From positions 1 through 64,000 of the forward strand of contig NZ_KB893761.1 of the NCBI RefSeq assembly GCF_000374165.1: a stretch of 64,000 nt of DNA. The letters run 5' to 3'. The position numbers and the translations under genes were made by a program. Numbering within the stretch: position 1 is the stretch's first letter; the number at the start of each line of letters is the position of its first letter. The notes under the pieces are model-generated. The model was not told the DNA's origin. It searched no databases and saw only the letters and a program-made list of their open reading frames with translations. Positions 5,091 to 34,874 of the stretch are shown here, piece after piece. Source of the DNA: Parafrankia elaeagni (GTDB lineage Bacteria > Actinomycetota > Actinomycetes > Frankiales > Frankiaceae).

Positions 5091-5183
5091 ACGGTTTCCG
5101 GCGGGAGCGTGGCGGCCCGGGCATCCATCCCGGTTCGACGGCCTCGGTGGAGCGCGCGATCAGGCCCGGGTAGCCTCAGCACT

Positions 5184-9439: not shown

Positions 9440-9532
9440 CCTGACTTGGGCCACGATCTGATCGTCTCGCTGTTCTCAGACAGGTGACCTGCGGGTTTGG
9501 TCTGAGCGGCACGCACGGGCCTGTCTGGCGGA

Positions 9533-9593
9533 TCATGTCGTGAGCCAGATCATGACCGAGGCGATGACGACCTCGGACCGGTGGTACTGATGA
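9533..9593 (-). pseudogene. IS5-family transposase remnant, C-terminal end
   Basis: The complement encodes YHRSEVVIASVMIWLTT, the closing segment of IS5-family transposases. The rest of the gene continues at 10747-11009, on the far side of the inserted IS630 element. Confidence 0.6.
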
Positions 9594-9652
9594 TTAATGC
9601 GTGGTGTCAATATGCCTGGTGATGGCTGATGGTGTGTGGGTAAACCTTTTGC

Positions 9653-10734: not shown

Positions 10735-10746
10735 ATCTACGCATTA

Positions 10747-11009
10747 AAGCTTGGTAGTGCCCGCGTTTGCCGTAGCGGGTCGCCAGCTCGCGGTACTGCG
10801 AGTCGGTTGAAGCAGCGTTCCACCACGTTGCGCTGCTTATAGAGCTGCGCGTCGAACGCGGGCGGGCGTCCGCCCGCGGACCCGCGACGGCGCCGGTCCG
10901 CTTTCTGGTCCTTCTTTTCCGGGATCTTGTGGTATTTACCCTGCGTCCGCAGCGACTTTCGGATTTTCTTTGCTGGTGTAGGCCCTGTCGGCCAGGAGAT
11001 GGCCGGGGA
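10747..11009 (-). pseudogene. IS5-family transposase remnant, internal part
   Basis: The complement encodes ADRAYTSKKIRKSLRTQGKY, then GSAGGRPPAFDAQLYKQRNV and VERCFNRL, typical of the C-terminal half of IS5-family transposases. At about 10800-10830 the frame slips, because QYRELATRYGKRGHYQA continues in another phase. It ends at the IS630 insertion. Together with 9533-9593 it represents a dead copy; its upstream edge abuts the end of the candidate immunity gene. Confidence 0.75.
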
Positions 11010-11477
11010 TCAACGGAGCAGGAGGGACTCCCCGCACTCGCAGGCCAGCGTGGCCTCCACCGCCAGTGCGCTCTGGTGGCGCAGCATGTCGGTGAGTTCC
11101 GAGGCGCTCCCGGGTGACAGAGCCAGGTTTCCCTCACAAACCACGAGCGAGCGCCCGGCCTCCCCGGGCCAGAGTGAGAGTTTGTACCGGTTCTCGGCGT
11201 GCAGCGTCAGCAGTCGGGCTGCCACCAGCCGAACGATCTGGTCGTCGATCTCCCGCACGTGCCAGACCACGTCGAGGAGTACGGGACTCCACTGTGTGTC
11301 GGCATCAGTCTTCGTCTGGGGGCCCTGAACGACATCGACGGAGACATCGAACTGGAGCGGACAATCGAAAGGGTCCGGGACTGTCACCCAGGCCCCGTAT
11401 CCTTCGCTGTCCCGGATTGGTTTAAAGTCGAACTCGGTGTTCCTGAATCCTTCCTCAATGATGTCGAACACGTCCAC
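11010..11477 (-). CDS. Candidate immunity protein for the RHS toxin
   Basis: A 155-residue protein from GTG 11477 with AGGAGC six bases upstream. The start overlaps the last 23 bases of the RHS gene, the usual place for the immunity gene of a polymorphic toxin. Residues 1-60 (FDIIEEGFRNTEFDFKPIRD, AWVTVPDPFDCPLQFDVSVD) and the acidic helical second half look like a small soluble cytoplasmic protein with no signal peptide. I recognise no named immunity family. The last codons (ESLLLR, then TGA) lie exactly where the IS5 remnant begins, so the native C-terminus may have been replaced. Confidence 0.5.
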   Translation of the reverse strand: MDVFDIIEEGFRNTEFDFKPIRDSEGYGAWVTVPDPFDCPLQFDVSVDVVQGPQTKTDADTQWSPVLLDVVWHVREIDDQIVRLVAARLLTLHAENRYKLSLWPGEAGRSLVVCEGNLALSPGSASELTDMLRHQSALAVEATLACECGESLLLR

Positions 11478-14400
11478 GGGATCGCTCCTGGAAGTCGGCG
11501 AGATGCTGCCACGCGGGGAGTGCTGGTCGGATCTGCACGCGCGGCAGCGGCGGACGCGCCACAGCGGGTGATGCCGGCACGCTCGCGCTGGTTGGGACCG
11601 TGCCCACCGTGTCCGTTCTTCCAGTCGGGAGAACGCGGCAGGGCGCCAGCCCGAGGGGATCGACGAGCACGGTGGGGTTGTCGACGTACGTCCGTGGGTT
11701 CGGAGCGGGTGCCAGACCGAGGGGGTCGGCGCTGAGATAGCGGCCGCATTCCGGATCGTAGTAGCGGTGCCGGTTGTACGACAGACCGCTTTCACGATCA
11801 AAGTACTGACCAGCGAAGCGAAGCGGGTGATCGTCCCTGCAGCCGTCCGCGATGTCCGGCCCGTGCAGCGGGAGCCCCCACAGCGTGGAACGCGCCAGCC
11901 AGGCAGCCTCGCCGTCGCGCACGTCCACGAGCGCAGTGGGCGTACCAATCTGGTCGGTCACCATCCCGAAGACCTCGACGGTGGTCTCCGCCCCAGCGGA
12001 GTCTGCGATGGAGCGCGTGGAGGTCTGCATGACCGGGGTGACGGTGGAGGGCAGGTAGTCCCACGTGGTCGTTTCGCGTCGCGGGTTTACGGAGGACGAC
12101 CTGCACGTCTCCACCATCGTCTCGCCGTCCCATGCGAACAGCGTCCGTTCGACGGTGCCGTCGGCGAGCTCCACGGCTTTCTCGATCCGGCGCCCGAGTG
12201 GGTCGTACCAGTAGCGGCACCGGGTACCGTCCGAACTTTCGAAGCCGACGAGGCGGTCCTCGCCGTCCCACTCGTACCGCGCCAACAGCTCGTCGTCTTG
12301 GCCTGAGTGCTCCCGCCGGCCGACTCGCCGGCCGCGTTCGTCGTGCCAGTAAGCCACGAGGTCGTCGCCGTCTCCGGCGCTCACCAGGAGCGTGCCGGCG
12401 TAGGTCCGGCCACCTCCACCGCCGCGGCGGCCAGCCGCGGTGGCAGTGGGCCAGTGGGCGGCCGCGATGTTGCCGGCCGTGTCGTAGGCGTACCGCTCCA
12501 TCCCGCTGTCGCCCTGGACGAGGGTCACCCGTCCGGCGGCGTCCAGTTCGTAATGCCACCAGCCCGACACCGAGTCGTGGACGCCCACGAGCAGTCCGTC
12601 CTCACGGTATGTGTAGTCGCGTTCCCACGTGGTCGGCTGGCGCGTGCCGAGCGGGTCGGGGGACGGGCGAGTGACCAGTCGCTGGGACGCCAAACTCGTG
12701 CCGTTCGCCCAGCCCTGGTGCAGCGTGGCCACCTCACCGAAGTCGACCCGCGTCGGTGCGCCCGAGCCGTCGTGGCGCAGCGCCGTCACCTCTCCGTCCG
12801 AGGCGGTGAGCTCCGTCAGCCGGCGCCGCGCGTCGTAGGACCAGGTGCTGCGAACACCGGACGGCGTCCGTCGGTGGAGCCGGCGGCCCAGCGGATCCCA
12901 ACGGGAGACGACGGCACGCCCATCCTGGCTCTCCGACAGCACCCGGCCCAGCCGGTCGCGGGTGATGTCCAGCCGCGACGTGGGCGACACCGCGGCGATC
13001 AACCGACCCGCCGCGTCGTGGACGAACGTGACGCGCTCGCCGTTCGTGATCTTCGCGACCACGTTGCCGGCCAGGTCCCGGCGGTACTCGACGCGGACAG
13101 CGCCCTCACGCGCGACGACAGCACCGGCGGCGTCACGTTCGTAGCGGACGGTCCGACCGTCGAAGTCGGTTTCACGGATGAGATGGCCGGCCGCGTCGTA
13201 CTCGTAGGTCCAGACCTGACCTGCATAGTTGGTCACGCTGCGTAGCCGCAACTCGGTGTCGTACCCGTAGGTGACCCTGTTCCCGTCTGGGCCGACGCGT
13301 GCGGTCGTCATGTCGAAGTGCCCGATCTCGAAGCGGGTCAGACGCCCGGCCCGGTCCGTGTGGGAGACGAGATTGCCCTCACCATCGTAGGTCCAGCGGT
13401 CGCATACGCCGTCCGAGGTCGTCCGGCGGACCATGCGGCCCTCCAACGACCAGTGGAACCGGACCGTGTGGCCCGTGGGGTCAACGACGCGCACCACACG
13501 ACCGAGCTCGTCGTAGCTCAGGCGAGACTGGCCGCCGGCGGGGTCGATCAGGACCGTCGGAAGACCGGCCCGGTTGTTAACCATGCGGTGAACGTCTCCG
13601 ACGGCGTCCACGACACTCGTGACCGCGCCGGCGGGACCGCACATGTACGCGGTGGTCGCGCCCTCGGCGTCGACGACGGTCCTGAGGGCGCCCCGTTCGT
13701 CGTAGGAATAGGTCCAGTGGGCGCCATCCGGGGTGAGGACACCTGTGGGAAGTGGACTGTCGTCGTACTGGTACCGGGTCACGGCATTGTCCGGGCGTTC
13801 GACGGAGAGCAGGTTGCCGAGGGCGTCGTAGCGGTTTCGAATCACCCGGCCGATGGGGTCCGTCCGCGCCAGCAGCTGGTCATGGCGATTCCACTCGTAG
13901 GTGGTGCTATGGCCGTTCCCGTCAATCTCGCGCACAAGCTGGCCGAGCGCGTTGGCGACGTACGTCGTGACGTGCCCGAACGAGTCGGTGACCGAGGTGC
14001 GGTGCGCATCGGCGTCGTAGGCGAGCTCCGAATCGAGGAAACCCTCCGGTCCCCGCGTCCGCACACACCGACCGGCCTCGTCGTATTCGTAGGTGTACTG
14101 GTCGCCGTTGCGATCTGTCCAGCCGGAGATGCGTCCGTGCTCATCGTGTACGAATGTCGTGGGAACTCCGGACGAGTTGGTGACGGACCGCAGCCGGCCG
14201 AGGGAGTCGTAACCGTACCGGATCAGGACCTGCCGCCGACCGTCGACCTTCGCACACAGCGCGGTCACGCGGGTGCCCTCCGACACGACATCGACCCGGT
14301 AGCCGCCGCTGTGTCGGACCGCCCTGGCCAGGCCTGCCCCGTCACGGTCGATGCGAACCCAGTTCTCGTGCCGGTCGGTGATCTTGAATAGCGGCAGCTC

Positions 14401-16491
14401 GACCGACCCGTCCTCGCGGACGGGGTCGGCGTCGCCGCCGGGAGGCGCGCAGAAGGAGCGGAACCTACCGTCGTGCCGGTTCATGACCGTGTAACCGGCT
14501 CCGGCCTGGGTCAGCGCCAGCTGGCGATCCGCGCTCGCGACGACGACCTCGCCGGTGGCCGGGGCCGGGAACCACAGCAGCTCGCCGTCCTCGGCTACGT
14601 AACCGACGCGAGAGCCGGTGACGACGAGCCGTACGTCGAACAGCGAGCACCACCCCGGTCCGAAGTGCCAGCCCACCGGATTGGCCGACCCGTAGGAGCG
14701 GCCCAGCGTCAGGGCGAGCGTGCCCGGTAGGTCCACGTCGACGACCTGCATGAACATCTCGCCCGTGACCACGTCGATCGGGTCCCTGCACGGTTTCTGT
14801 CGGCTGCTGCCGGGTCGACCGGAAGCGAAGACCAGCCCTTCCCGTTTCATCTCCTTCGCGAGTCTGAGCGCCGAGCGGACGGGCTTGGGCTTCGACTGCG
14901 AACCCTTGCGCTGGGACGTACGCGGCCTCGGCGACGGCGCCGGCCGACTCGGCCGCTGGCCCCGGCGGCGCTCCTTCTGCAGCCGGGCCCGCGCGATGGC
15001 GCTGACCTCGTCCCGCTGCTTGGTGATGTGCTTGTCGATCATTCTGGCCAACCGCCGTTTCGGCGTGTGTCGCGGCTTCTTCGTCGAGTTCCGCGAACGC
15101 CCGCCCTTGAGCGGCTTCGTGCCGTGCCTCGGGTTGTCACGGCCGGGAAGCACGCCCGTCCGGCTCGTCAGGCGGCCTCCCTCCACCCGTTGCGACGACG
15201 GGCGCCGTACTGCGCTCACCGCGGCGTTCGGCTTTCTCTCCCGCGAGGTCGACGGCGTCCGCTGGCTGCCGGCCGGACTCCGCGCCGGAGATCTTCCTGC
15301 GGTCGTGGCGGTTGTGGAGCCGGGACGTCCGCTGTGCGCCCTGCCCGTGCGAGCACGCCGGAGCCGGCGCGGGACCTCGGCCGGGTTATGACGCGTCGCC
15401 CGCGTCAGCCCGCCGCGGGAACGGCGTGCCGCCGAGACGTCAGCGGTCGAGGCGCGGGACGTCGTGCCACGTCTACGATCGACGATCGCCTGCCTGGGGC
15501 GCGGCTGGCGGGCGAGGGACCCGCGCTTCGCGGCCTGCGGGCTGGGCCGGACCCGGGACGGCTGGGTGCCGCGTACGCGTCGGGGATGGACCGGCGCCGG
15601 GGTCGCGGCCGACCGCTGGCGCCGGGATGCGGGACCGCCGAATCCGGACCGAGCCGCCTGACTCCGTGGGACCCGAGTGGACGCGCCGCCACCGGTCAGC
15701 CCCGAGCGGCGCCGGCCCGACTGCTCGCCCCGGCGCGTGTTGGTGCGGACCCTGGCCGCGCGCAGTGGCTTGGCTCGGACCGGCGGCGGGTCCGGCAACG
15801 CGCGACGCCGGCGCGGGTTCGCCGGCGCGGACCTGCTGGCCCGGGTCTGCCTTCGCTGCTTCGCGCGTTCGTGCACCTGCCTGCCCGAGCGCCGCGGTGT
15901 GGACGCGCGCTCTCCGGCCGGCACGGCCTCACGACGTCGGCGAAGTGCGCCGGCCACCACGGCACGGGCTCGCTTTGACGTCGGCGCGGCGGTGCGTGGA
16001 GAACCACTTCGGAACAGACCGGTGCCAGCCTCGACCGAGGCCGTGGCGTCGACCGTGGCGGGCGGGCGTGTGGCGGCCGACCGGGGCGGGTGCGGTGCTT
16101 CGGTGGGTCGGGGTCGCGGGCGCCTCCTGACGCGCTCGCCAGGCGGGCCGGCCGCGGCGGGGACCGTGGCGGCGACCGGAGCAGGAGCCGGCCTGACGGT
16201 CCAGCTCGGACGGCGCGGGCGCGTCGAGTTCGGATCTGTCGGCCGGGCGGACTCGACGGTGGGCGGGTCCGGGGCCGGCCGACGTGGTCGACGCGCGTGC
16301 CGCCGCGGCACGTCCTGCTGCGCCGCGACCACCCGCGCGGCGCCCAGCGGCGGGATCACGCCGTCAGACGGCGGTTGAGCGAGCGGCCGCCGGCGGGCGC
16401 GAGACCTGGTCGGTGGGGAATCGTCGGTCGAGGCCGTGACGGTGGCGTCCGGCCCAAGAATGCCCGTATTGTGCCGATTGGCGCGGATCAT
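11455..16491 (-). CDS. Giant RHS/YD-repeat polymorphic toxin-like protein
   Basis: A 1678-residue protein from ATG 16491 (GGGGCGAGG upstream). Residues 1-560 are extremely rich in Arg, Pro and Ser, without a signal peptide; G/C-ending codons support real coding at least from about 480. At 565 (CRDPIDVVTGEMF) begins the N-terminal module of RHS proteins. About 20 YD-type repeats follow (for example YEYDEAGRCVRTRGPEGFLD) up to the RHS core end HRYYDPECGRYLSADPLGL, then YVDNPTVLVDPLGLAP near 1617. RHS repeats form a shell that encloses a C-terminal toxin released after DPxGL. Here only about 61 residues remain after it, short for an enzyme domain, and no nuclease or deaminase motif is visible. 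The toxin may be a small peptide or a truncated tip. Confidence 0.8.
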   Translation of the reverse strand: MIRANRHNTGILGPDATVTASTDDSPPTRSRARRRPLAQPPSDGVIPPLGAARVVAAQQDVPRRHARRPRRPAPDPPTVESARPTDPNSTRPRRPSWTVRPAPAPVAATVPAAAGPPGERVRRRPRPRPTEAPHPPRSAATRPPATVDATASVEAGTGLFRSGSPRTAAPTSKRARAVVAGALRRRREAVPAGERASTPRRSGRQVHERAKQRRQTRASRSAPANPRRRRALPDPPPVRAKPLRAARVRTNTRRGEQSGRRRSGLTGGGASTRVPRSQAARSGFGGPASRRQRSAATPAPVHPRRVRGTQPSRVRPSPQAAKRGSLARQPRPRQAIVDRRRGTTSRASTADVSAARRSRGGLTRATRHNPAEVPRRLRRARTGRAHSGRPGSTTATTAGRSPARSPAGSQRTPSTSRERKPNAAVSAVRRPSSQRVEGGRLTSRTGVLPGRDNPRHGTKPLKGGRSRNSTKKPRHTPKRRLARMIDKHITKQRDEVSAIARARLQKERRRGQRPSRPAPSPRPRTSQRKGSQSKPKPVRSALRLAKEMKREGLVFASGRPGSSRQKPCRDPIDVVTGEMFMQVVDVDLPGTLALTLGRSYGSANPVGWHFGPGWCSLFDVRLVVTGSRVGYVAEDGELLWFPAPATGEVVVASADRQLALTQAGAGYTVMNRHDGRFRSFCAPPGGDADPVREDGSVELPLFKITDRHENWVRIDRDGAGLARAVRHSGGYRVDVVSEGTRVTALCAKVDGRRQVLIRYGYDSLGRLRSVTNSSGVPTTFVHDEHGRISGWTDRNGDQYTYEYDEAGRCVRTRGPEGFLDSELAYDADAHRTSVTDSFGHVTTYVANALGQLVREIDGNGHSTTYEWNRHDQLLARTDPIGRVIRNRYDALGNLLSVERPDNAVTRYQYDDSPLPTGVLTPDGAHWTYSYDERGALRTVVDAEGATTAYMCGPAGAVTSVVDAVGDVHRMVNNRAGLPTVLIDPAGGQSRLSYDELGRVVRVVDPTGHTVRFHWSLEGRMVRRTTSDGVCDRWTYDGEGNLVSHTDRAGRLTRFEIGHFDMTTARVGPDGNRVTYGYDTELRLRSVTNYAGQVWTYEYDAAGHLIRETDFDGRTVRYERDAAGAVVAREGAVRVEYRRDLAGNVVAKITNGERVTFVHDAAGRLIAAVSPTSRLDITRDRLGRVLSESQDGRAVVSRWDPLGRRLHRRTPSGVRSTWSYDARRRLTELTASDGEVTALRHDGSGAPTRVDFGEVATLHQGWANGTSLASQRLVTRPSPDPLGTRQPTTWERDYTYREDGLLVGVHDSVSGWWHYELDAAGRVTLVQGDSGMERYAYDTAGNIAAAHWPTATAAGRRGGGGGRTYAGTLLVSAGDGDDLVAYWHDERGRRVGRREHSGQDDELLARYEWDGEDRLVGFESSDGTRCRYWYDPLGRRIEKAVELADGTVERTLFAWDGETMVETCRSSSVNPRRETTTWDYLPSTVTPVMQTSTRSIADSAGAETTVEVFGMVTDQIGTPTALVDVRDGEAAWLARSTLWGLPLHGPDIADGCRDDHPLRFAGQYFDRESGLSYNRHRYYDPECGRYLSADPLGLAPAPNPRTYVDNPTVLVDPLGLAPCRVLPTGRTDTVGTVPTSASVPASPAVARPPLPRVQIRPALPAWQHLADFQERSRGRVRHH

Positions 16492-16689: not shown

Positions 16690-18408
16690 ATGGGAGCCTG
16701 GTCTGCTGGTGGCCAAGCAGGCGAAACGGGGGCGTGGCGCCGTGTGCTGAAGTTTTTTTTGCTTTCGGTCATACCGGCTGTCGTCATACCGGCGGCGATG
16801 ATCTTAATTTTTCGCGTTCTTCGGAACACGCCGTTGGTGATGGTCGGGCCCGATGAGGTGTCGCCGACACCGACGTCCAGCTCGGCTCTGGTCCCACGTG
16901 CCCGCGGGCACCTCGTACAGAGTCGCGACGCACCGAGGGAGAACGCGATGCCCATCGACGACATCATCGTGAGAAGGCCGTGGCAGGCACGATCACTGAC
17001 AGTCGAAGCCGAGCGCAAGGCGGTGCTGTTCCGCAACGAGATCCCGGTCAAGGTCCTGACCGCGGGCCGCCGTTACTCTCCCGCGCGGGGCCTCCCGTTC
17101 TCCGCCGACATGTACGTGATCGAGTTCGACATGCGCAAGACCTGGCACCAGGAGGTACTGCGCGGCCTGCGGCTCGAGGACGGTGACAGCGTCGACGTCG
17201 CGGTCGAGGCGTGGGTGGGCCTCCAGACGGCGAACGAGCAGCAGCTCAGCGAGTGGGTGACGAGCTACAACCTGCTCAGCATGCCGAAGGATACGTTGCT
17301 GCGGAGGGAGTTCCGCCGCCGTTTCCAGGAGGTGTTCGGGCGCCTCGACCGGAGCCAGGTCATGCGCCATGCCTACGATCGCGAGGACCTGTGGAGCAGC
17401 GTCCGCCCCGGCGGGTCGAGCTTCCTGTGTATCCACGAGATCGTCGACGTCACCGTCCTGGATGACGCCGTGGCACTGGCCGACCGGGAGGGCCAGGTGG
17501 AGCGGACCCGGCTGCGCCACGAGCTCGCCCGCAAGGCCGAGCGGCTGCGCGTCCTCATCGAGCTGGCACGGGAGCAGAACCTGCCGCTGCACATGGTGGA
17601 CGAGGAGCTCGCGAAGCGTTTCCGAGCGGCCGTCGAAACCCTCCGCGATCTCTACTCCGTAGGCTCCAACGCCTTTGTCGGAGCTTTCCGGGAGCTCGTC
17701 GCCCACTCCAGCGGTATCGGCGACCTCGCGACCGAGCACCGCCAGCTCGTCCCGTGGCTGATGAGCCGGGTCGAGGACCTGGTACCCAACAACATCCTTG
17801 CCTCCGTCGTAGGTTCGATGGCTTCGGGGGAGGACCGTGGGCACCCGCCGCCTCCGGCCGCCGCGGCCGCCGCGGGTGGCGCGGGTGGCGCGGGTGGGCG
17901 GCGGGAGGCCGAGCCCGCGATGCTCTCACCGCGCTCGACAGCCTGGCGCCCACCCAACGAACTTCGGATGACGCCGCCCGAGGCCCGCCTCATGGTGCGC
18001 GGCCTCGCGCTGCCCCACGTCGTCGGATGCTGCGTCGCGTCGCCTCCCACCGCTGAGGCGACGCTGTACCTCGTGAGCGACGATCCCGATTTCCTGGCGG
18101 AACGGATCCGCTCGGTCCGTGAGCACCTCCTCCGCGACCTCGCCGTCACCGACGTCGTCGTCCTCGCATGGTGCGCCGACCCCGACGAACGGCTGCCCGA
18201 GTGGTGCCGGGGGACGAGCCGCGTGGCGGCCCGGGCTGTGTCGGGCCGCCGGGACGCGGACGGCTCGGTCGTGCTGTCCGCCTACGACGGGAACGGCCGA
18301 TCGATCAGCGACGAGCTGAGTCTGCTCCGCCTACGGACGTTCACCGAGGTGGTGCGTCTGCTCTCCGGCGAGGACGTGGTTCGCATAGACACCGCGGCTG
18401 CGGCGTAA
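16690..18408 (+). CDS. Membrane-anchored SPFH/band-7-like protein
   Basis: A 572-residue protein with one strong N-terminal membrane helix (about 19-43, FFLLSVIPAVVIPAAMILIF). After a linker, residues about 100-340 have the outline of an SPFH/band-7 domain: a beta-rich part (ERKAVLFRNEIPVKVLTAGR, DSVDVAVEAWVGLQTAN) followed by a long charged helix (LADREGQVERTRLRHELARK). A Pro/Ala/Gly linker (395-420) leads to a C-terminal alpha/beta domain (about 435-570) that I do not recognise. SPFH proteins form membrane-associated rings. As first gene of the SPFH-HerA-CHAT operon it may tether the complex to the membrane. The SPFH call rests on pattern, not on a profile search. Confidence 0.55.
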   Translation: MGAWSAGGQAGETGAWRRVLKFFLLSVIPAVVIPAAMILIFRVLRNTPLVMVGPDEVSPTPTSSSALVPRARGHLVQSRDAPRENAMPIDDIIVRRPWQARSLTVEAERKAVLFRNEIPVKVLTAGRRYSPARGLPFSADMYVIEFDMRKTWHQEVLRGLRLEDGDSVDVAVEAWVGLQTANEQQLSEWVTSYNLLSMPKDTLLRREFRRRFQEVFGRLDRSQVMRHAYDREDLWSSVRPGGSSFLCIHEIVDVTVLDDAVALADREGQVERTRLRHELARKAERLRVLIELAREQNLPLHMVDEELAKRFRAAVETLRDLYSVGSNAFVGAFRELVAHSSGIGDLATEHRQLVPWLMSRVEDLVPNNILASVVGSMASGEDRGHPPPPAAAAAAGGAGGAGGRREAEPAMLSPRSTAWRPPNELRMTPPEARLMVRGLALPHVVGCCVASPPTAEATLYLVSDDPDFLAERIRSVREHLLRDLAVTDVVVLAWCADPDERLPEWCRGTSRVAARAVSGRRDADGSVVLSAYDGNGRSISDELSLLRLRTFTEVVRLLSGEDVVRIDTAAAA

Positions 18409-18425
18409 CCGGGCACCTGTCAGTT

Positions 18426-19595
18426 GTGACCGACGATCTGTGGCGGGAACCGGACGACTGGTGGATGTTCGGCTTGTCGGTGCCGTGGCTGTCGAACCAG
18501 GAGTCCGCTCGCCGTGGTGACGACCCGAGCCGCTCCTTCGCCGACCAGGTCCTGTTCCTGCGCACCATGGCCTCACGCGTCGACCAGGCCCCGCTGGACC
18601 CGTCGGACGGGGACGAGGACCGGAACTGGCGCGTCCAGCTCCGCTACTGGACGGAGGGCTGGGGTGGCAAGACGCTGCGCTGCGCGCTGTTCGGCGCAGC
18701 GCGAGGGAGATACGGAGCGGAGGACCTGCTCGCCCATCTGCTCGGGGCGTTGCCGCGCTCGCTCCCGCTCGAGCAGCTGGGCCAGGACGACGCCCGGTCG
18801 ATGCTGCGCATGGACACGCCGGACCTGCGGGCCGTGGAGATCCGCCGGGCGATCCGCCGAGGCGATCCGCGGGCGACGCGGTCGGAGGTTCAGGCCGACG
18901 GCGACCACCTGACGGTCCCGCAGCCGCCGGCTGGTGAGCTTCTGCGGCCGACGGGTCGTACGGTCGGCGGCGCCGACTCGGCCCGGGTGCCGCCCGAGCT
19001 CGATCCCCTCGGCGTGCCGGTCGAGGAGCGACGAGACCTGCGGGTGGTCCCCTGGATCTGGTCGGCCAACACCCTCGAGGCGACGCTGTACGCACTCGTG
19101 CAGAGACAGGTGCCGACCGCGCTGGCCGTCGTCCTGTCGCCCGCGCGCCTGACACAGCGGGAGCGGGATCATCTGTCGGTCGGCAGCACTCGCCAGGACC
19201 TGCACGCCAGCCGACGCGACGACCCGCTGGCGGAAACGCTCTACAAGGCGTACCGAGGTTACAGCCGTGAGATGCGCGAAAGCTGCGTCGAGATGCACGT
19301 CTTCCTCGCGTCCGCCGGTGAGCTGGGACTGTGGTTCCCGAAACTGGTCGGAAACGATCTAAGCGCCGGCGGCGGTGAAGTCTCGGGCCTGTGCGTCTTC
19401 GAGGCGGCACCCGTCCGGACGCGGCACGACCAGACGTTGGTCGCCGATGCGATCGCGCTGCGCCGCCACGGCGGTCTGCACCGGTCCGAGGCTGGCGCGG
19501 TCGCCGGGCTCGCCGACAAGTTCCCGGCCTGGGAGGCGAATGTCGCGTTCCGATTCCCGGTCCTGGCGAACGACCTGTTCATCGCGGACTGGTAG
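18426..19595 (+). CDS. Unknown protein resembling the N-terminal part of the adjacent HerA-like ATPase
   Basis: The GTG at 18426, 17 bases after the SPFH stop, gives 389 residues; a longer in-frame start would overlap the SPFH gene by 240 bases. No catalytic motif or membrane segment is visible. SPARLTQRERDHL near residue 238 parallels TPTKLAQNEYRAA at about the same position in the next protein. An early block (FLRTMASRVDQAP then NWRVQLRYW) parallels ESMGHMARALHVL then TFELRLV there. I infer a stand-alone copy of the ATPase N-terminal domain, perhaps a subunit of the same ring. No known family recognised. Confidence 0.6.
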   Translation: MTDDLWREPDDWWMFGLSVPWLSNQESARRGDDPSRSFADQVLFLRTMASRVDQAPLDPSDGDEDRNWRVQLRYWTEGWGGKTLRCALFGAARGRYGAEDLLAHLLGALPRSLPLEQLGQDDARSMLRMDTPDLRAVEIRRAIRRGDPRATRSEVQADGDHLTVPQPPAGELLRPTGRTVGGADSARVPPELDPLGVPVEERRDLRVVPWIWSANTLEATLYALVQRQVPTALAVVLSPARLTQRERDHLSVGSTRQDLHASRRDDPLAETLYKAYRGYSREMRESCVEMHVFLASAGELGLWFPKLVGNDLSAGGGEVSGLCVFEAAPVRTRHDQTLVADAIALRRHGGLHRSEAGAVAGLADKFPAWEANVAFRFPVLANDLFIADW

Positions 19596-19631
19596 CCGTG
19601 CGGGCCACGACGAGGGGGAGGGCACCTGCGC

Positions 19632-22475
19632 GTGACCGACATGCGTGAGCCGGACGGAGCCGACGAGGCGATCGACGAGTCGGCGACGATGGCGCGCGAG
19701 GACGGCGGCACGACTGTCGCCGTCGCCGTCGCGGAGATCCCGTTCCTGCCAGAACCCGCTGACACCCCTCGTGCGGACGCCGAGCGCCGCCAGTTCACCG
19801 AGTCGATGGGACACATGGCGCGTGCCCTGCACGTGCTCGGCGGTACGAGTCGAATACGCCGGACCTTCGAGCTGCGCTTGGTCGCCCCGCGCGAGAGCTC
19901 AGCGGAGATCGCGATGTTCTTCCTGGTCCACAGTTCGGTCCCGAACGACGGGCAGCTGTCGTCCAGCCGTGAGACGGACGCGCGTCGCGACGCCGCCCGG
20001 ACGCTGCGCCTCGTCCTGTCGCTGGCACCCACCCGGCTGACCTGCTCCAAGGTGAGCTGGGACGCCACCTCCGGTGCGGCCAAGGATATGATCCGTAAGC
20101 GCGCGGGCGTGGACACCCGGTTCGGCTGGCGAGCGGACCTGCGGAAGTTCGATCTGCTGACCTGGGCGACGGAACTCGACCCGCTGTCGCGTGGCGAACG
20201 ACTCGAGCGCAATCGTCGCAGTCCCCACAACCCCCGTCCTCGGCGGCGCCACGTCTTCCCGGCGTCCTTTCCCCGCGCGCGGGGCGACCTGCTGCCCGTC
20301 GTGTCGGCCATGACGGGCGCACCCGGCGAGTTGATGATCCGGATCCTGCTGACGCCTACGAAACTCGCTCAGAACGAGTATCGCGCCGCGGGCCTGATCC
20401 AGCGGGACCTCGCTGTTCGGCTGAAGGAGAACGCCCCGGACGCGGTGCTTGCGGTGCGGGCGAGTTCGGCGATTCAAGCGCTGCTGGACGCCCACGAGGT
20501 GTTCGCCTACCAGGCCGCTGTCTACGGCGAGGACGTGGAGTCGGTGCGGTCGGTGACGGCGGCGTGGCGCATGGAATTCGACGGGGCCCGCGGCAGGTCG
20601 GACGCGGATCTCCCCGTCGCCACCGAACCAGTCGCGCTGTCCGACACCACGCGCGGCCGGCTCGCGTTCGTCGACCAGCCGCAGCACCAGAGGCCTACCG
20701 GCCCCGAGGACGTGGCGGGGGTGTTCGACTGGCCATCGCCCCAGGCCGAGGAGCCTGGCCGGGAGCGGGAACACGATCAGCAGACAGACCCTGGGCTGCT
20801 GCGGGTGGGAAGCCTGATGTCCGCCGCCGAGGCGGCCGCCCTGTGGCGCCTTCCCGCAGTGCGGCCCGGCGGCCAGTCGGGGTTGCCGAGCCGGCCAATC
20901 AACCCGTTCGAGCAGTTGCCGCGAATGACCGACCACAACTTCCGCGAGCACGCGGGACAGTGCATCCCCATCGGGCGGGTTCGGCACCGGGGTTACAGCC
21001 TCGCCGCTGATTTCGTGCTGCCGGTGAGTGACGGCAATCCCGCTGGTGTCAACATCCTCGACCGCGTGATGCTCGTGGTAGGGGCCCCGGGTTCCGGAAA
21101 GACGAACTTCGCCTGCACGGTCCTCGACCAGATCGACGCTCGCGGCACGCCGTTCCTGGTGATCGACCCGACGCTGGGAGGCGAGTTTCGCGGACTGTCA
21201 CCTGGCAGGCTCGTCGTCTACACCGTGGGCGAGCGCCACAACCCGCTGAGGTTCAACCCGTTCGCCGTTCCATCGAACGTCAACCTCCAGACGCACATCA
21301 CCCGGCTCATGACGTGCTTTCGGTCCGCCTTCTGGATGTGGGACCCGCTGCCGGCGATTTTCGAGCAGGCGATCACCGAGGCATACTCGCGCAGGCTGTT
21401 TCCCGGCGGTCGACCGCCGGGGTGGCGCGCGGCCGACGTCAAGGGCGCGGACCTCGCCGGCCGCGCTCCGACGCTGCGAGATGTCGCGCGCGCGATGGGA
21501 ACCGGCGCGGCGGACGAAAAGGACACCGTGCTCGCGGGTATCGGCCGGATGTGGTCCGCAGGTGGAAACGCCACCGAGAACCAGTCCACAATCCTCGCGT
21601 CGACCTCGATGCGGCTAAGCAGCCTGGAACGCAACTACGGCCACATCATAGGTGACAGCGGCCCGTACACCGACGTCGCGAGGCTCCTCGACACCCCTAC
21701 GGTGCTCGAGTTCGGTGCGATCGGGGACGGCCAGGCGCTCGCCCTCATCGCCTCGTTCCTGCTGGTGAGCGTGGTCGGCGAGATCGAGACCGCCGACCGC
21801 CGCGGCTACCACGTGCTCGTGCTGGAGGAGGCGCACCGCCTGCTGGCCGGCACGGCATCCTCCACCGCCCGCGCCGAGTCCGCCGATTCCTCCGCCCAGG
21901 CCGCTGCGGACCTCAACAATCTGCTCGCCGAGGTGCGCAAGTACCACCAGGGAGTCATGATCCTTGACCAGCGGCCCGGCTCCCTGGTCGGCGGCGTCAT
22001 CGACAACGCCTACCTGGTGGCGATGCACCGGCTCGGCGAACGAACCGGGTTCGAACACCTGTCTGACATGCTCAACCTGAACGCCGAACAGCGCCGCTTC
22101 GCTCGGGTCGGGCTGGACGTCGGTGAAGCCGTCGTGCTGGACCGGCTGCTGGGGGCGCCGGTGCTGATTCGGCCGGAGGTGCGCGAGCCGCCGCCCGAGG
22201 CCGACTGGGAGGTATGGCGGGCACGTGCTCGGCGGTTGCTCAGCGACGGTGGTCGAGCTGCGGTCGACGGCGACCGGGCGCGCTCGGTGCTCGCGAAGCT
22301 GCGCGCCGATCCCGACGACACCCGCCGGCTGGCGGCGCTGGGCCGGCGGCTGCGCGCCGACGTCGTCGGCTCGGTGACGGTCGCGAGGGTGCTGTCCGCG
22401 CTCACCGGCCAGCCTGATCTGGACGAAGAGCTGCTCCAAGCGGTCATCGACATCCTGCGCGAGGAGGCGCATTGA
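19632..22475 (+). CDS. HerA/VirB4-like ring ATPase with unusual N-terminal domain
   Basis: A 947-residue protein from GTG 19632, behind a strong AGGGGGAGGG; an ATG at 19641 is an alternative. Residues 1-350 form an N-terminal domain shared in outline with the preceding gene. The RecA-fold ATPase (about 460-870) has Walker A GAPGSGKT near 485-492, a Walker B HVLVLEEAHRLL near 726-737, and a distal ILDQRPGSLVGGVIDNA as in HerA/FtsK/VirB4 motors. HerA-type hexamers translocate DNA or remodel protein and occur in defence systems with nuclease or NADase partners. Here the genetic partners are an SPFH-like membrane protein and a CHAT protease. Substrate and activity are not evident from sequence. 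Confidence 0.75.
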   Translation: MTDMREPDGADEAIDESATMAREDGGTTVAVAVAEIPFLPEPADTPRADAERRQFTESMGHMARALHVLGGTSRIRRTFELRLVAPRESSAEIAMFFLVHSSVPNDGQLSSSRETDARRDAARTLRLVLSLAPTRLTCSKVSWDATSGAAKDMIRKRAGVDTRFGWRADLRKFDLLTWATELDPLSRGERLERNRRSPHNPRPRRRHVFPASFPRARGDLLPVVSAMTGAPGELMIRILLTPTKLAQNEYRAAGLIQRDLAVRLKENAPDAVLAVRASSAIQALLDAHEVFAYQAAVYGEDVESVRSVTAAWRMEFDGARGRSDADLPVATEPVALSDTTRGRLAFVDQPQHQRPTGPEDVAGVFDWPSPQAEEPGREREHDQQTDPGLLRVGSLMSAAEAAALWRLPAVRPGGQSGLPSRPINPFEQLPRMTDHNFREHAGQCIPIGRVRHRGYSLAADFVLPVSDGNPAGVNILDRVMLVVGAPGSGKTNFACTVLDQIDARGTPFLVIDPTLGGEFRGLSPGRLVVYTVGERHNPLRFNPFAVPSNVNLQTHITRLMTCFRSAFWMWDPLPAIFEQAITEAYSRRLFPGGRPPGWRAADVKGADLAGRAPTLRDVARAMGTGAADEKDTVLAGIGRMWSAGGNATENQSTILASTSMRLSSLERNYGHIIGDSGPYTDVARLLDTPTVLEFGAIGDGQALALIASFLLVSVVGEIETADRRGYHVLVLEEAHRLLAGTASSTARAESADSSAQAAADLNNLLAEVRKYHQGVMILDQRPGSLVGGVIDNAYLVAMHRLGERTGFEHLSDMLNLNAEQRRFARVGLDVGEAVVLDRLLGAPVLIRPEVREPPPEADWEVWRARARRLLSDGGRAAVDGDRARSVLAKLRADPDDTRRLAALGRRLRADVVGSVTVARVLSALTGQPDLDEELLQAVIDILREEAH

Positions 22476-22521
22476 CCGGGCGGCTGCCCGCCGGGGTCGG
22501 ACCGACGCGTCGGGTGAGGCC

Positions 22522-25500
22522 GTGAGCAACGCGCTCGCACGACTGCGGGACAGGCTCGACCGGTTTCGCGCGAGCGGCGATCCTACGGTGGTGCTGGCTG
22601 CGGCGGCTCTGATCGACGCCGCCGCCGCGTGGTGGGAAAGAGGAGCGAAACCGGACGTCGCGATCTTGCGCGACGTCGGCTGGCTGCACTGGTACCGCTA
22701 CGTCTCGCTCGACCCCGAGGCGGACCTCCCCTCGGATCTCATGATCGCACATGGCCTCTTCGAGATCGTCTACCAGCACGACCCGCGTGCGGTGCCGACC
22801 GACCTTCGAGACCACTTCCGTGCCACTCCGTCCGTCCGCGACGACGGCTTCCTCGAGGCGTTGACGAGCAGTTACGGCGCACAACTGCTGGAGGAGGCGT
22901 TGCGCGACGACGATCCGGCCGGGCTGGACGCGGCAGTCGATCACCTGAAGCGCATCGTCGCCACGGCCCCGAGGGGCCAGCCCGACTGGGCCGGGGCACA
23001 GTCGAACCTCTGCTATGCCCTGCGGGTCCGCTTCGAACGCGCGGGCTCGCTGGTCGACCTCGACGCGGCTGTGGCCGCCGGCGAACAGGCTGCGGTGGCC
23101 TTCTCCGCTCACCATCCCGGACGGGCCGACGTGCTGTCCAACCTCGGGAACGCGCTGAGTACGCGATTCGAGCGATTCGGCGTACCGGCGGACATCGACG
23201 CCGCCGTCACTGCCGGACGGGCGGCGGTCGCGGCGGCCGCGGGTGTGAAATACCCGGACCCGGGTAGACACCTGTCCGGGCTCGGCTCCTCCCTCGCGAT
23301 CCGACACGCGCGCGCCGGGTCTTGGACGGATCTCGACGAGGCCGTCGCCACGACCCGGGCCGCTGTGGTGGCCACTCCCGTCGGTCGTCCCGAGCGTGCC
23401 GCGAGACTGTCCAATCTGGCCGTCGTCCTGCGAAGGCGCTTCCAGCGCAGCGGGCAGACGGACGACCTGGACGCCGCCGTGTCCGCTGGCCGGGAGGCGC
23501 TGGCAGGGCTCGCACCTCACCGGCCGGAGCGGGCCGGAGCCTTGGCGAACCTGGGCAACGCTCTGTTCGCCAGGTACGAGCGGTCCGGTGCCATGGGCGA
23601 CCTCGACGGGACCGTCGAGGTTGGTCGGGAGGCGCTGGCGACGATCCCGCCGGAACATCTTAGCTGGACCGCGATTTCGTCGAACCTCTCCCAGGCACTG
23701 CTCGCTCGTTCTCGTCGTCGCGACTCGTTGGCGGACTTGGACGCCGCCGTTTCGGTCGGTCGAGACGCACTGGCGAGAACCCCGCCCGACCATTCCGGCC
23801 GTGCTGCGCTCTTGACCGGCCTCGGGCTCGCGCTGCGCGCCCGCCACGACCGGACCGGCTCTCCGGCCGACCTCGACGCCGCCGTGGACGTCAGCCGCGA
23901 GGCCGCTGGCCGTCTTCCCGACGGGGACCCGACCCGCGTCCACGCCCTGTCGAGCCTGTCCAATGCCCTGCGGGCGCGGTTCGAACGCGGTGGCGCGATG
24001 ACCGATCTCGACGAGGCTGTCACTGTCGCGCGGGCGACGGTTGCCGCTGTGCCGGACGCTCACGTCGACCGCTGCGCACACCTTTTCAACCTGGGCGGCG
24101 CAGTTAGCCTCCGGTTCGAACGCACGGGCGCCTCGGGCGACCTCGACGAGGCACTGTCGGCCTTCCGCCGGGTCGTCGATCTCACACCGGGCGACCACCC
24201 GGCCCGCGCCGGTCGGCTGTCGAGCTTCGGTAATGCCTTGACGGCCCGCTTCGGTCGGCGCCACGAGCAGGCCGACATCGACGAGGCCGTGGTGGTCGGC
24301 CGCGAGGCGGTGGCGGCGACACCCACGGATCACCCCGATCTAGCGAGCCGATGGTCGAATCTGGCAGTCGCCCTCGCCTACCGGCATCAGTGCACCGGCG
24401 ATCTCGCCGACCTAGACGAGGCCGTCGACACGGAACGCGCCGCTCTCTCCGTCACCGGGCCGGACCATCCCGACAGGGCGGTCCGGCTGTCCAATCTCGC
24501 TCTCAGCCTGCACACGCGCTTCGAGCGCACCGGCGAGTCGTCTGACCTCAACGACGCGATCGCCGCCGGCCGCGAGGCGCTCGCGCTCGCCCACCTCGAC
24601 CATCCCCTCCGGGCCGTCATGCTGTCGGGTTTCGGCAATGCGCTCAGCGAGAGGTTCGCGCGGACCGGAGACTCCACCGACCTCGCAGAAGCCGTCGCGG
24701 CGGGCCGGATGGGGTACACCCTGACAATCGCCAGCCCGACCGACCGGCTGCGGGCGGCACGAGTGTGGGGCAAGGCATCCGCCGCCGGTCGCCTGTGGAG
24801 CCAGGCGGCCGCGGGATACGCTGCCGCGACAGACCTGATCGGCATGGTGGCACCCCGAAACCTGGCCCGGCCCGACCAGGAACACCGCATCGGTGAGCTC
24901 GACACCCTGGGCTCGGACGCGGCCGCGTGCCACATACGGGCGGGCATGCCAGAACGCGCCCTCGAGGTCCTCGAACAGGGACGGGGCGTGCTGCTGGGAC
25001 AGGCCCTGGATACCCGTACCGACCTGACAGCCCTCGCCGAGAGCCACCCCGACCTCGCTGCCCGATTCGTCGCTCTCCGCGAAGCGTCTGACCATGACGG
25101 CCGCGGCCAACCCGGGAGCACCGAGGCATTCGCCGAACTGACCGCGCGGATTCGCGGACTGCCAGGCTTCGAGGGCTTCCTTCGTCCACCACCCGCCCGT
25201 GAGCTGATCGAGGCCGCCGGCGAGGGCACCGTCGTCGTCGTCAACGTGTCTACCCACGGCTCGCACGCGCTGCTGCTCGCCCGATCGGGTATCGACGTCG
25301 TCGAACTCGACGGCCTGACACCGTCGAAGGTCCGTGAGCGGGTAGCGGCGTTCGTCCGGGCCGTTTCGCCCCTACCCGGGTCGCACGAGTTGGGGGGCGA
25401 GGCCCGACCACCCCATGATCCGGAAGTGACAGTGAACGAGACCCTGTCGTGGTTGTGGGACGTGGCTGCGGAACCCGTACTCGCCGCGATGGGTGCGACT

Positions 25501-26307
25501 GGCCGACCTGCCCCCGGCGCGCCGTGGCCGCGTATGTGGTGGTGCCTGTCGGGCCTGCTGTCGTTTCTCCCGATCCATACCGCTGGTCGCCACGAGACTC
25601 GCCGGACACCGAGCCCCGCTACGGTGATCGACCGAGTCACATCGTCCTACACGCCGACGGTGCGCTCGCTGGCCCGAGCCGCGCACGGGGCCGGGATGCT
25701 CGGTTCCGGCGTCGTCGACGGACCCGGTCTGGTCGTATCCATGCCCCGCACCCCCGGTCATCCCGACCTTCCGGGCGCCGAGGCGGAGGCCGAACTGCTG
25801 CGTCGCTGTCACGTCGGTGGTGCGCGCGTCCTCACGGGTCCCGACGCGACTCGGGAGCGAGTCCTCGACGCGATGCGTGCGGCCCGGTGGTCGCACTTCG
25901 CCTGTCACGGTCACAGCGACCCCACCGACCCGTCCAACGGCCGCCTTCTCCTGCACGATCACGACACCGCGCCGCTGACCGTCGTGGACGTCGCTCGCTT
26001 GCGACTCGGTGACGCCCGGCTCGCGGTGCTGTCCGCGTGCACTACCGCCCGGCCGGGCGACCGGCTGGCCGACGAAGCCATCCATCTGGCCTCGGCGTTC
26101 CAGCTTGCTGGCTACCGCCACGTCCTGGGCACGCTGTGGCCGATCAGCGACACGCTCGCGACGACCGTGAGCCATGACATCCACCAGCGGCTCAGCGGGT
26201 CGGAGCCCGACGTCGCCGGGGCCCTGCACGCCGTCGTCCGAGCTCTGCGTGACGCGCTGCCCGACCACCCGTCGCTGTGGGCGTCCCACGTGCACATCGG
26301 GCCGTGA
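22522..26307 (+). CDS. TPR-repeat CHAT protease of the SPFH-HerA operon
   Basis: A 1261-residue protein starting with GTG 22522 (GGTGAGG upstream), 46 bases after the ATPase. Its N-terminus (NALARLRDRLDRFRASGDPT) resembles that of the CATRA-locus protease. Residues about 130-750 are at least a dozen TPR-like repeats of about 46 residues, such as RFERTGASGDLDEALSAFRR. The CHAT domain (about 1070-1261) has intact catalytic blocks: HFACHGHSDPTDPS (His near 1128) and VLSACTTARPGD (Cys near 1174). The overall layout matches the protein at 5798-9439, so the two are paralogues. This copy has a HerA-like ATPase and SPFH protein as partners instead of CATRA proteins. The target protein is unknown. Confidence 0.85.
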   Translation: MSNALARLRDRLDRFRASGDPTVVLAAAALIDAAAAWWERGAKPDVAILRDVGWLHWYRYVSLDPEADLPSDLMIAHGLFEIVYQHDPRAVPTDLRDHFRATPSVRDDGFLEALTSSYGAQLLEEALRDDDPAGLDAAVDHLKRIVATAPRGQPDWAGAQSNLCYALRVRFERAGSLVDLDAAVAAGEQAAVAFSAHHPGRADVLSNLGNALSTRFERFGVPADIDAAVTAGRAAVAAAAGVKYPDPGRHLSGLGSSLAIRHARAGSWTDLDEAVATTRAAVVATPVGRPERAARLSNLAVVLRRRFQRSGQTDDLDAAVSAGREALAGLAPHRPERAGALANLGNALFARYERSGAMGDLDGTVEVGREALATIPPEHLSWTAISSNLSQALLARSRRRDSLADLDAAVSVGRDALARTPPDHSGRAALLTGLGLALRARHDRTGSPADLDAAVDVSREAAGRLPDGDPTRVHALSSLSNALRARFERGGAMTDLDEAVTVARATVAAVPDAHVDRCAHLFNLGGAVSLRFERTGASGDLDEALSAFRRVVDLTPGDHPARAGRLSSFGNALTARFGRRHEQADIDEAVVVGREAVAATPTDHPDLASRWSNLAVALAYRHQCTGDLADLDEAVDTERAALSVTGPDHPDRAVRLSNLALSLHTRFERTGESSDLNDAIAAGREALALAHLDHPLRAVMLSGFGNALSERFARTGDSTDLAEAVAAGRMGYTLTIASPTDRLRAARVWGKASAAGRLWSQAAAGYAAATDLIGMVAPRNLARPDQEHRIGELDTLGSDAAACHIRAGMPERALEVLEQGRGVLLGQALDTRTDLTALAESHPDLAARFVALREASDHDGRGQPGSTEAFAELTARIRGLPGFEGFLRPPPARELIEAAGEGTVVVVNVSTHGSHALLLARSGIDVVELDGLTPSKVRERVAAFVRAVSPLPGSHELGGEARPPHDPEVTVNETLSWLWDVAAEPVLAAMGATGRPAPGAPWPRMWWCLSGLLSFLPIHTAGRHETRRTPSPATVIDRVTSSYTPTVRSLARAAHGAGMLGSGVVDGPGLVVSMPRTPGHPDLPGAEAEAELLRRCHVGGARVLTGPDATRERVLDAMRAARWSHFACHGHSDPTDPSNGRLLLHDHDTAPLTVVDVARLRLGDARLAVLSACTTARPGDRLADEAIHLASAFQLAGYRHVLGTLWPISDTLATTVSHDIHQRLSGSEPDVAGALHAVVRALRDALPDHPSLWASHVHIGP

Positions 26308-31951: not shown

Positions 31952-33577
31952 TTGATCATCGAACCGCTGACCCTTGACGGGGTCGTTCCGTTTCCGTCCG
32001 AGACGGCAGCCAGGTACGTCGCCGAGGGATACTGGCGCGATCAGACACTGCCGGAGCTGCTGTTCGCCACCGCGGAGCGCTGTCCCGACAAACTCGCTGT
32101 CATCGACCGCAAAGCCGAGTTGAGCTATGCACAGCTCACGGACGAGGTTCTGCGCCTCGCTGCCGGCCTGCAGGATCTGGGGCTGAGCCGTGGCGACCGG
32201 GTGGTGGTACACCTGCCCAACATCTATGAGTACATTGCCCTCGTCTTCGCCTTGTGGGAGCTCGGGGCGGTTCCCGTCGTCGCTCCCATCGCGCACCGTC
32301 GTGCCGAGATCGAGCACTTCATCGAGATCACCGAGGCGCGTGCCTACATCACAGTCGCCTCGGACAGCGGCACCGATCTCGCTGCGATGGCTGCCGACCT
32401 GAAGCAGCGATGGCTTCATCTGGAGCACACCGTAGTACTCGAACGTGATGGCGGCGGGGCTGAGTACAAGGCGTTGCAGTCGAAAGGATCGCTCGAGCAC
32501 GCGCGACGGTGCAGCCCGCAGGACGTCGCTCTGTTGCAGATGTCAGGCGGCACGACGGGCGTTCCGAAGCTGATGCCGCATACTCATCAGACGTACGGCT
32601 ACGCACTGCGGCGAAGCGTTGGGGAACGAGGCATCACCGAGCGCACCGTGCATCTGCTGGTCATACCGATCTGCCACAGTATGTCGACGCGTTCGCCCGG
32701 ATTTCTCGGTGCGTTCAGCGTGGGAGCCACCATTGTGATCGCACCGAACGGCAGCCCCGATGCGGCGTTCCCGCTGATCGAGAAGCACGGGGTGACCCGC
32801 GTTTCGCTGGTACCTCCGATCCTGCTGGCCTGGCTGAACTCCTCGCTCCGCAAGTCCTATGACATCTCCAGCTTGAAGGTGCTCATGTGCGGCGGCGCGA
32901 AGCTGAGCGAATCAGTGGCGGATCGGGTCGAGCCGGAGTTCGGCGTGCAACTGTCGCAGAGCTTCGGGATGGGAGAGGGCCTCGTCGTCAGCAATCCTGC
33001 CGACGTCGATCGGGCCACCAGCGTGCGATACCAGGGTCGGCCGGCCTCAGCGGCCGACGAGATCCTGGTCATCGATGACGAGGGCGACGAAGTGCCACCC
33101 GGCGCACCCGGTCACTTGCTGACCCGAGGACCGTCGGTGATTCGCGGATACTACCGCAACCCCGAGCAGAACGCGCTGGCGTTCACCAGCGATGGTTTCT
33201 ACCGCACCGGTGACATCGTCGAGCGGGACGAGCGCGGGTTCATCAGAGTCGTGGGACGGTCGAAGGACCAGATCAACCGGGGCGGCGAGAAGATCGCGCC
33301 CGAGGAGCTGGAGAACGCGCTGCTCACTCATGCCGGCGTCCACAATGTCTCCGTCGTCGGCGTCGATGACGAGGTCCTCGGCGAACGTATCAAGGTGTAC
33401 CTGATTCCCCGGATGCCGGAGAGCGCGACCGAGCTCACTCTGGGCAAGCTGCGCCAGTTCCTGCGCGACAAGGGTCTCGCCACGTTCAAGCTCCCCGATG
33501 TCGTGGAGGTCGTCGACGAGTTCCCGTACACAGCGGTCGGCAAGGTCAGCAAGCGTCTGCAGCGCGAGCAGAACTAG
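31952..33577 (+). CDS. Aryl-acid AMP ligase (EntE/DhbE/MbtA-like) of a siderophore pathway
   Basis: A 541-residue stand-alone adenylation enzyme with a TTG start (AAGGGA upstream). It should activate an aromatic acid with ATP and transfer it to an aryl carrier protein. Motifs are intact: LLQMSGGTTGVPKLMPHTHQ (P-loop, near 195-214), QSFGMGEGL, YRTGDIVERDERGFIRVVGR, and a C-terminal lysine in YTAVGKVSKRLQ. In DhbE/EntE the acid-binding loop reads AHNYPLSSPG; here it is CHSMSTRSPG near 241-250. The Ser typical of dihydroxybenzoate enzymes (not the Cys of salicylate enzymes) is kept, but the Asn that contacts the 2-hydroxyl is Ser. The aryl substrate may thus differ. No genes for dihydroxybenzoate or salicylate synthesis are in the window. 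The likely acceptor is the free carrier at 49131-49382. Confidence 0.85.
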   Translation: MIIEPLTLDGVVPFPSETAARYVAEGYWRDQTLPELLFATAERCPDKLAVIDRKAELSYAQLTDEVLRLAAGLQDLGLSRGDRVVVHLPNIYEYIALVFALWELGAVPVVAPIAHRRAEIEHFIEITEARAYITVASDSGTDLAAMAADLKQRWLHLEHTVVLERDGGGAEYKALQSKGSLEHARRCSPQDVALLQMSGGTTGVPKLMPHTHQTYGYALRRSVGERGITERTVHLLVIPICHSMSTRSPGFLGAFSVGATIVIAPNGSPDAAFPLIEKHGVTRVSLVPPILLAWLNSSLRKSYDISSLKVLMCGGAKLSESVADRVEPEFGVQLSQSFGMGEGLVVSNPADVDRATSVRYQGRPASAADEILVIDDEGDEVPPGAPGHLLTRGPSVIRGYYRNPEQNALAFTSDGFYRTGDIVERDERGFIRVVGRSKDQINRGGEKIAPEELENALLTHAGVHNVSVVGVDDEVLGERIKVYLIPRMPESATELTLGKLRQFLRDKGLATFKLPDVVEVVDEFPYTAVGKVSKRLQREQN

Positions 33578-33581
33578 ACGC

Positions 33582-34802: not shown

Positions 34803-34826
34803 GGAACTCGATCTCGGGTTCGCCGA

Positions 34827-34862
34827 GTCTGGTGCAGCACGACGCTCCGTGCTGCACCAGAC
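34827..34862. terminator. Bidirectional hairpin terminator
   Basis: A perfect 15-bp stem (GTCTGGTGCAGCACG) with loop ACGCTC, exactly between the convergent hydroxylase (stop at 34802) and NRPS1 (stop at 34875). Confidence 0.8.
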
Positions 34863-34874
34863 AACGAAATTCGA

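Follow-up and report, generated by a model that had tools for sequence, protein, structure and literature searches.

The window analysed here, the 64,000-nucleotide stretch at positions 1 to 64,000 of contig NZ_KB893761.1 of Parafrankia elaeagni, carries four consecutive genes, g1 to g4, which encode a membrane protein, a smaller protein, an ATPase and a protease and which probably belong to bacterial immunity. As stated in a first-pass annotation made from the letters alone, the genes are co-directional with gaps of 17, 36 and 46 bases, the Walker motifs of g3 are intact (GAPGSGKT at residue 484, VLVLEEAH at 728), and g4 is a TPR-CHAT protein with intact His and Cys blocks (HFACHGH at residue 1125, SACT at 1171). 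No terminator-like site was found between g1 and g4 in a terminator scan, which had little power since it returned 3 sites overall against a mean of 3.2 in shuffled sequence. Coordinates are collected in Table 1, where loci carry our own handles.

Table 1 Features of the g1 to g4 locus (window positions) and of four related two-gene units (locus positions). aa, amino acids; N-domain, N-terminal domain of the g3 ATPase family; 2-TM, two-transmembrane
Feature	Coordinates	Strand	Description
g1	16690..18408	+	572 aa; N-terminal membrane helix, central region, Ala/Pro/Gly-rich linker, C-terminal region; no family match
g2	18426..19595	+	389 aa, GTG start; predicted N-domain of the g3-type ATPases as a protein of its own, P-loop absent; FRFP hinge at DNA 19548, stop just after
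g3	19632..22475	+	947 aa; HerA/VirB4-like ATPase in the FtsK-HerA superfamily; Walker motifs at 21081 (A) and 21813 (B)
g3 N-terminal region (residues 1-440) with N-domain	19632..20951	+	E 4.5e-14 to profile of ATPase N-termini; alignment
g4	22522..26307	+	1261 aa; TPR array and CHAT protease domain
g4 CHAT domain, containing the His and Cys blocks	25438..26301	+
2-TM + N-domain-TIR two-gene unit	L180:8681-11414
2-TM + N-domain-TIR two-gene unit	L181:4692-7294
2-TM + N-domain-TIR two-gene unit	L182:7725-10898
2-TM + N-domain-TIR two-gene unit	L183:9218-11924

The annotation had called g2 a protein without known motif while naming it a HerA paralogue in its title, and profiles and alignments overturn the former statement and bear out the latter in substance. 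As judged from sequence comparison, g2 is an N-domain of the g3-type ATPases that stands as a protein of its own and has no P-loop, because profile and single-sequence searches match it to ATPase N-termini in alignments that end at a common hinge. A profile of 11 such N-termini placed g2 at the top after g3, albeit weakly (8.7 bits, E 0.069; next protein 0.92, among 508 proteins and 1000 shuffled sequences), and a profile of six actinobacterial N-termini placed it first at E 0.0046 among 1221 open reading frames (ORFs), longer forms of g2 included, and 2000 shuffles, followed by an ATPase fragment at L097 (0.019), the ORF preceding the L041 ATPase (0.02) and then further sequences, none below 0.27. 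With four N-domains from TIR fusions added to the profile, g2 was matched at E 3.4e-5 and the next other sequence at 0.33. As a single sequence, g2 matched the N-terminus of the L184 ATPase (E 3.9e-16 in a set of four proteins, 7.1e-15 when more were included), and the alignment falls into two co-linear segments that cover residues 66-149 and 207-380. The hinge has the form EA..FR(L/F)P; the ATPase begins there in full-length relatives, and g2 stops after it. No copy of g2 was found in the plasmid collection. The L184 locus (6721-13304, genome G171) consists of four near-overlapping genes, for an Asp-rich acidic protein, a 443-aa protein, the ATPase whose N-terminus is the best-scoring match for g2 alone, and a multi-transmembrane protein; the 443-aa protein resembles g1 in outline, with no significant sequence match to it.

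For the N-domain, a fold model of g2 was built from its alignment with 11 relatives, including the g3 N-region and leaving out L037, L040 and L091. When the model was compared with the PDB using Foldseek, ranks 1-13 were all taken by R388 type IV secretion chains (E 1.7e-5 to 2.6e-3), with an unrelated entry at rank 14 (0.056). The definition of HerA includes an N-terminal HAS-barrel, and no entry titled HerA was present among the best 50 Foldseek matches listed, for a low-confidence model made for g2 and not for g3. According to the accessible part of PMC9259494, the interface of the VirB4 central/outside dimer in the R388 structure is formed wholly by N-domains, and by analogy an N-domain devoid of an ATPase could fill the VirB4 'outside' position.

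The HerA-like ATPase of the annotation is upheld for g3 by superfamily profiles, the Walker motifs and matches to HerA structures, although HerA/VirB4-like is the better name; in its sequence the ATPase core is nearest HerA. Pfam matched P-loop_TraG at 26.7 bits (cut-off 25.8) and DUF87 at 23.7 bits (cut-off 23.2), both by small margins, and the former, just above its cut-off, is the sole sequence-profile pointer of g2 or g3 to VirB4, with no such match among PDB sequences. In a PADLOC scan of the four proteins, the HerA and mad8 models matched g3 and BovA weakly matched g4, no model matched g1 or g2, and no NAD-consuming or nuclease partner of the Sir2-HerA or nuclease-HerA type was found. 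A contig search with g3 alone gave no relative, and g3 matched 40 records in the plasmid collection, none spanning more than 80% of the query. With an alignment (A2), relatives of the ATPase were found at 47 loci at least, a count from which orthologues may be missing. Directly upstream of the ATPase in five actinobacterial loci (L053, L054, L055, L151, L153) lies a 2-TM gene, mutually alignable among them, and the ORF preceding the L041 ATPase matches this family at E 3.9e-102. Among the matches listed, a transmembrane gene stood at position -1 in 17 of 35 ATPase loci, compared to 47 of 196 more distant neighbour genes (Fisher p 0.004, uncorrected for kinship of the loci), and within two genes upstream in 21 of the 35, a set that leaves out 12 of the at least 47 loci, six with no called upstream gene and six with no close upstream gene on the same strand.

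The N-domain also occurs in a second setting. A profile containing g2, g3 and a protein of genome G168 (A5) matched 6 of 197 genomes of the class and brought up four new short proteins, at L180 (the same genome, contig C44), L181 (G026), L182 (G007) and L183 (G019), in which TIR_2 follows shortly past the hinge (E 2e-14 to 3.3e-24) and which contain no motor. The sixth genome matched was G171, where L184 carries the form with the ATPase. A 2-TM gene lies upstream of each, matched at E 4.9e-53 to 6.9e-68 by a profile made without these sequences, and at L180, L181 and L183, not at L182, an EAD1-TIR gene adjoins on the opposite strand; EAD1 is a coupling domain of conflict systems as described in the accessible portion of PMC7159879. 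The strongest evidence for a role of the module in conflict is this exchange, in which the N-domain carries TIR in place of the ATPase. In these relatives the membrane-tethered ATPase module proposed by the annotation shows ties to conflict effectors, as a 2-TM gene with the ATPase and as a 2-TM gene with N-domain-TIR, while its link to CHAT is one of gene order in one genome.

At the g1 to g4 locus, the gene in the membrane position is g1, with a single hydrophobic helix at its N-terminus, as the annotation had stated; in a single-sequence model the helix spans residues 12-46. The SPFH-like outline also ascribed to g1 found no backing in any profile search. Neither g1 nor g2 has a family match in Pfam, PADLOC or NCBIfam, an SPFH or Band 7 label for g1 likewise gained no support from PDB sequences, hhalign or single-sequence folding, g1 ranked 27th, 30th and 279th among 331 sequences, mostly controls, when aligned by hhalign to three SPFH profiles, and the single-sequence model (predicted local distance difference test, pLDDT, 40.8) is too poor for fold assignment. 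Candidate relatives of g1, namely the Hymenobacter membrane protein P0005, the L091 membrane gene, the 2-TM family and the 443-aa gene of L184, gave no significant match, and g1 was absent from the plasmid collection. SPFH proteins and g3-type ATPases do meet in nature, because true Band_7_1 genes lie two genes after the ATPase at L056, L061, L064 and L078 (4 of the at least 47 loci). An SPFH profile made from the four proteins that it finds would detect close relatives only. The records of these loci name Lachnospiraceae, Planctomycetaceae, Bacteroidales and Alistipes, and their operons run from the ATPase through a low-complexity or variable protein to the SPFH protein, with SHOCT in some.

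The last gene, g4, matched CHAT (PF12770) at E 9.1e-47 and TPR_10 at E 3.4e-20 in Pfam. Genes of its type were present at E<=1e-80 in 6 of 148 genomes of the class, its own included, and 11 loci were taken from the other five; their g4-type genes are also matched by g4 itself. CATRA occurs in two of the 11 (L161, L162) and EAD1 fusions in two (L163, with TIR; L166, with NB-ARC-TPR). Five loci (L164:7689-12806, L165, L167, L168, L171) hold a cassette of TPR-CHAT, a protein of approximately 140 aa, whose C-terminus at L164 appears Cys/His-rich by eye, and a membrane protein of approximately 311 aa, and the two small genes have no Pfam family at L164 and L165. At L167 (8665-15102) the TPR-CHAT gene follows TraG-like, replication-relaxation and NlpC/P60 genes that share its orientation, and it is apparently part of a conjugative element. 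At L103 (14145-19968) a CHAT gene adjoins a 968-aa gene that has no Pfam family, on the same strand. Upstream of g1 to g4, at window positions 3094-9439, are a CHAT fragment, a CATRA-EAD1 gene and a second TPR-CHAT, and contig C92 carries two further CHAT genes at approximately 78000-92000, one of them beside CATRA-EAD1.

The reading we favour, with a probability of about 0.42, is that g1 to g3 form a membrane-tethered HerA/VirB4-like scaffold that controls the g4 CHAT protease, as a variant of known conflict systems. The g3 ATPase would pair with g2 through N-domains alone, in the manner of VirB4 'central' and 'outside' subunits, and g1 would be the membrane anchor in the slot held by the 2-TM partner in relatives. 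The complex would keep the protease inactive through the TPR array of g4 until an invader event at the membrane, such as incoming conjugation or phage machinery, upset it and freed the protease, which would cleave target proteins and leave the cell halted or killed. In its favour are the homology of g2 to the N-domain, the R388 fold matches, the recurrent 2-TM gene, the TIR fusions, the CATRA and EAD1 genes near g4 relatives and in this window, and the short gaps between the genes on one strand. We infer the assembly of g1 to g3, the trigger, the membership of g4 and the killing, and we draw the tie between the membrane and HerA/VirB4-like module and CHAT from gene order in one genome. Of the membrane-tethered motor or sensor triggering proteolysis that the annotation had proposed, relatives uphold the membrane-ATPase module with its conflict ties, but not the coupling to CHAT.

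A number of results speak against this reading. No CHAT was found in 68 ATPase loci, scanned in their complete ORFs over L037-L099 and L142-L155 (neighbourhoods numbering 4, from plasmids, 12, 47 and 5, several ending at a contig edge) with a profile of 13 seeds of the g4 family that could miss distant CHATs, and no g3-type ATPase was found in the 11 g4-type loci. In seven of those 11 the sole partner is a relative of the 311-aa uncharacterised membrane protein, strong and with the 140-aa gene in five, weak in two. Conserved co-occurrence, which the annotation would have led one to expect, was not found, the complete set having been seen in its own genome only. Taken singly, g1 was found in 1 of 36 genomes of the family, its own, and a search of 246 genomes of the phylum gave that genome and six others, whose seven matches are short and weak (E 3.3e-4 to 0.0098), are mostly interrupted by internal stops and were read as chance; g2 alone matched 2 of the 36, one of them (G029) at E 0.009 with an internal stop and treated as chance. 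Neither g1 nor any other gene of the window matches the 2-TM family. Confidence in the g2 model, which is driven by the relatives' sequences, is low (pLDDT 59.9; predicted template modelling score, pTM, 0.67). Its 13 R388 matches have low template modelling scores (TM-scores) of 0.31-0.36, and the search does not report which stretch of each target was aligned. Just four of the 13 come from TrwK/VirB4-only entries, the other nine being from inner-membrane-complex entries and presumably VirB4 by their chain lengths (457-808). The alignment used for the g2 fold finds no match among PDB sequences, where the ATPase profile A2 matches HerA structures and not VirB4.

The main rival, possible though somewhat doubtful, is chance adjacency, in which g1 to g3 form a self-contained system and an independent TPR-CHAT gene, g4, from a family that has multiplied in the island, came to lie downstream by recombination. 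The absence of CHAT from the ATPase loci and of the ATPase from the g4-type loci fits this explanation, as do the five CHAT matches of the genome, all on this contig, and the transposase and RHS genes nearby. It sits less well with the 46-base gap between g3 and g4 on the same strand, free of a terminator-like site in the weak scan, and with the arrangement around g4, which is adjoined neither by CATRA nor by the 140-aa and 311-aa pair (no match in the window), as if these had been replaced.

A stripped-down type IV secretion-like exporter, in which the membrane gene and a VirB4-like motor export the product of the next gene and g4 is cargo or a processing protease, seems improbable to us. The fold matches of the N-domain to R388 secretion entries would suit an exporter, and so would the strongly polar, low-complexity protein (polar/small fraction >=0.77) that directly follows the ATPase in 8 of 45 loci among the matches listed (L053, L054, L055, L056, L064, L071, L078, L091) and the gene that follows the L049 ATPase, from another locus set, which encodes an ADP-ribosyltransferase toxin domain. 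However, g4 has no such leader, the other 37 of the 45 downstream genes listed are less extreme, 10 downstream proteins compared with NCBIfam gave just low-complexity or weak matches and no credible toxin family, the N-domain-TIR proteins have no motor, and no secretion gene was present among the 18 other window genes scanned. The annotation's scheme of a membrane SPFH scaffold, a HerA ring and CHAT in full is very improbable given the searches with g1, for all that SPFH genes accompany the ATPase at four loci.

Returning to the favoured scaffold, we found no description of the wider module to which its membrane and HerA/VirB4-like part belongs. A broader proposal, rather unlikely as it stands, is that the VirB4-type N-domain with its membrane partner may be a general immune membrane sensor derived from secretion motors, with the ATPase kept or TIR in its place, and doubled here into one copy with the ATPase and one lacking it for the control of CHAT. 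Such a sensor would be a guard or decoy for conjugation machinery and set off cell death. If true, a secretion-motor domain would have been turned into an exchangeable receptor at the membrane that serves different immune effectors (ATPase, TIR and perhaps CHAT), and conjugation machinery would be linked to bacterial cell suicide. The 2-TM and N-domain-TIR loci are concrete, recurring candidates independent of g4.

Elsewhere in the window, a 1678-aa RHS-repeat protein on the minus strand (11455-16491) lies directly before g1 in divergent orientation. Positions 31952-51309 are likely a peptide metabolite cluster, with an AMP-binding enzyme, a two-module gene like those of nonribosomal peptide synthetases (34875-44423, minus strand), two genes for ABC transporters and a protein with a siderophore-interacting domain; a 2526-aa ORF follows at 51652-59232.

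No description of an SPFH/HerA/CHAT set or of a membrane and HerA/VirB4-like module was found in the open full-text literature, a search with preprints and most subscription journals outside its scope and not aimed at the N-domain-TIR form, nor is the module described in the accessible parts of PMC7159879, PMC8195603, PMC3482391, PMC12839542, PMC10853773, PMC10952713, PMC10907252 and PMC9259494. Compared to VirB4/TrwK of R388, the N-domain has its best fold matches there, by a low-confidence model, the g3 motor ATPase is of the same superfamily, and the upstream membrane gene of the ATPase relatives may, by analogy only, occupy a VirB3-like slot; the locus differs in that no other type IV secretion system genes were found among the 18 other window genes scanned, the g3 core is nearer HerA by sequence, and a separate gene encodes an N-domain lacking the ATPase. 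With Csx29 of Craspase, g4 shares the TPR and CHAT layout (NCBIfam E 1.9e-9), but it scores 37 bits against a family cut-off of 300 and no Cas7-11 was found among the scanned window genes. The Sir2-HerA and 'HerA/FtsK capture' systems, in the accessible text of PMC10853773 and PMC12839542, likewise use an ATPase of the FtsK-HerA superfamily in conflict, whereas here no nuclease or Sir2 partner was found and the N-domain is another one, with a membrane gene and a protease or TIR effector. In the caspase-like and EAD1 conflict systems, as far as the accessible portions of PMC7159879 and PMC8195603 go, the HerA/VirB4-like module is missing and FtsK ATPases are effector domains (the former mentions 'HerA' a single time, in the title of a reference, and never 'CHAT'), yet they resemble the loci described here in joining a membrane gene to caspase-superfamily or TIR effectors with EAD1 nearby.

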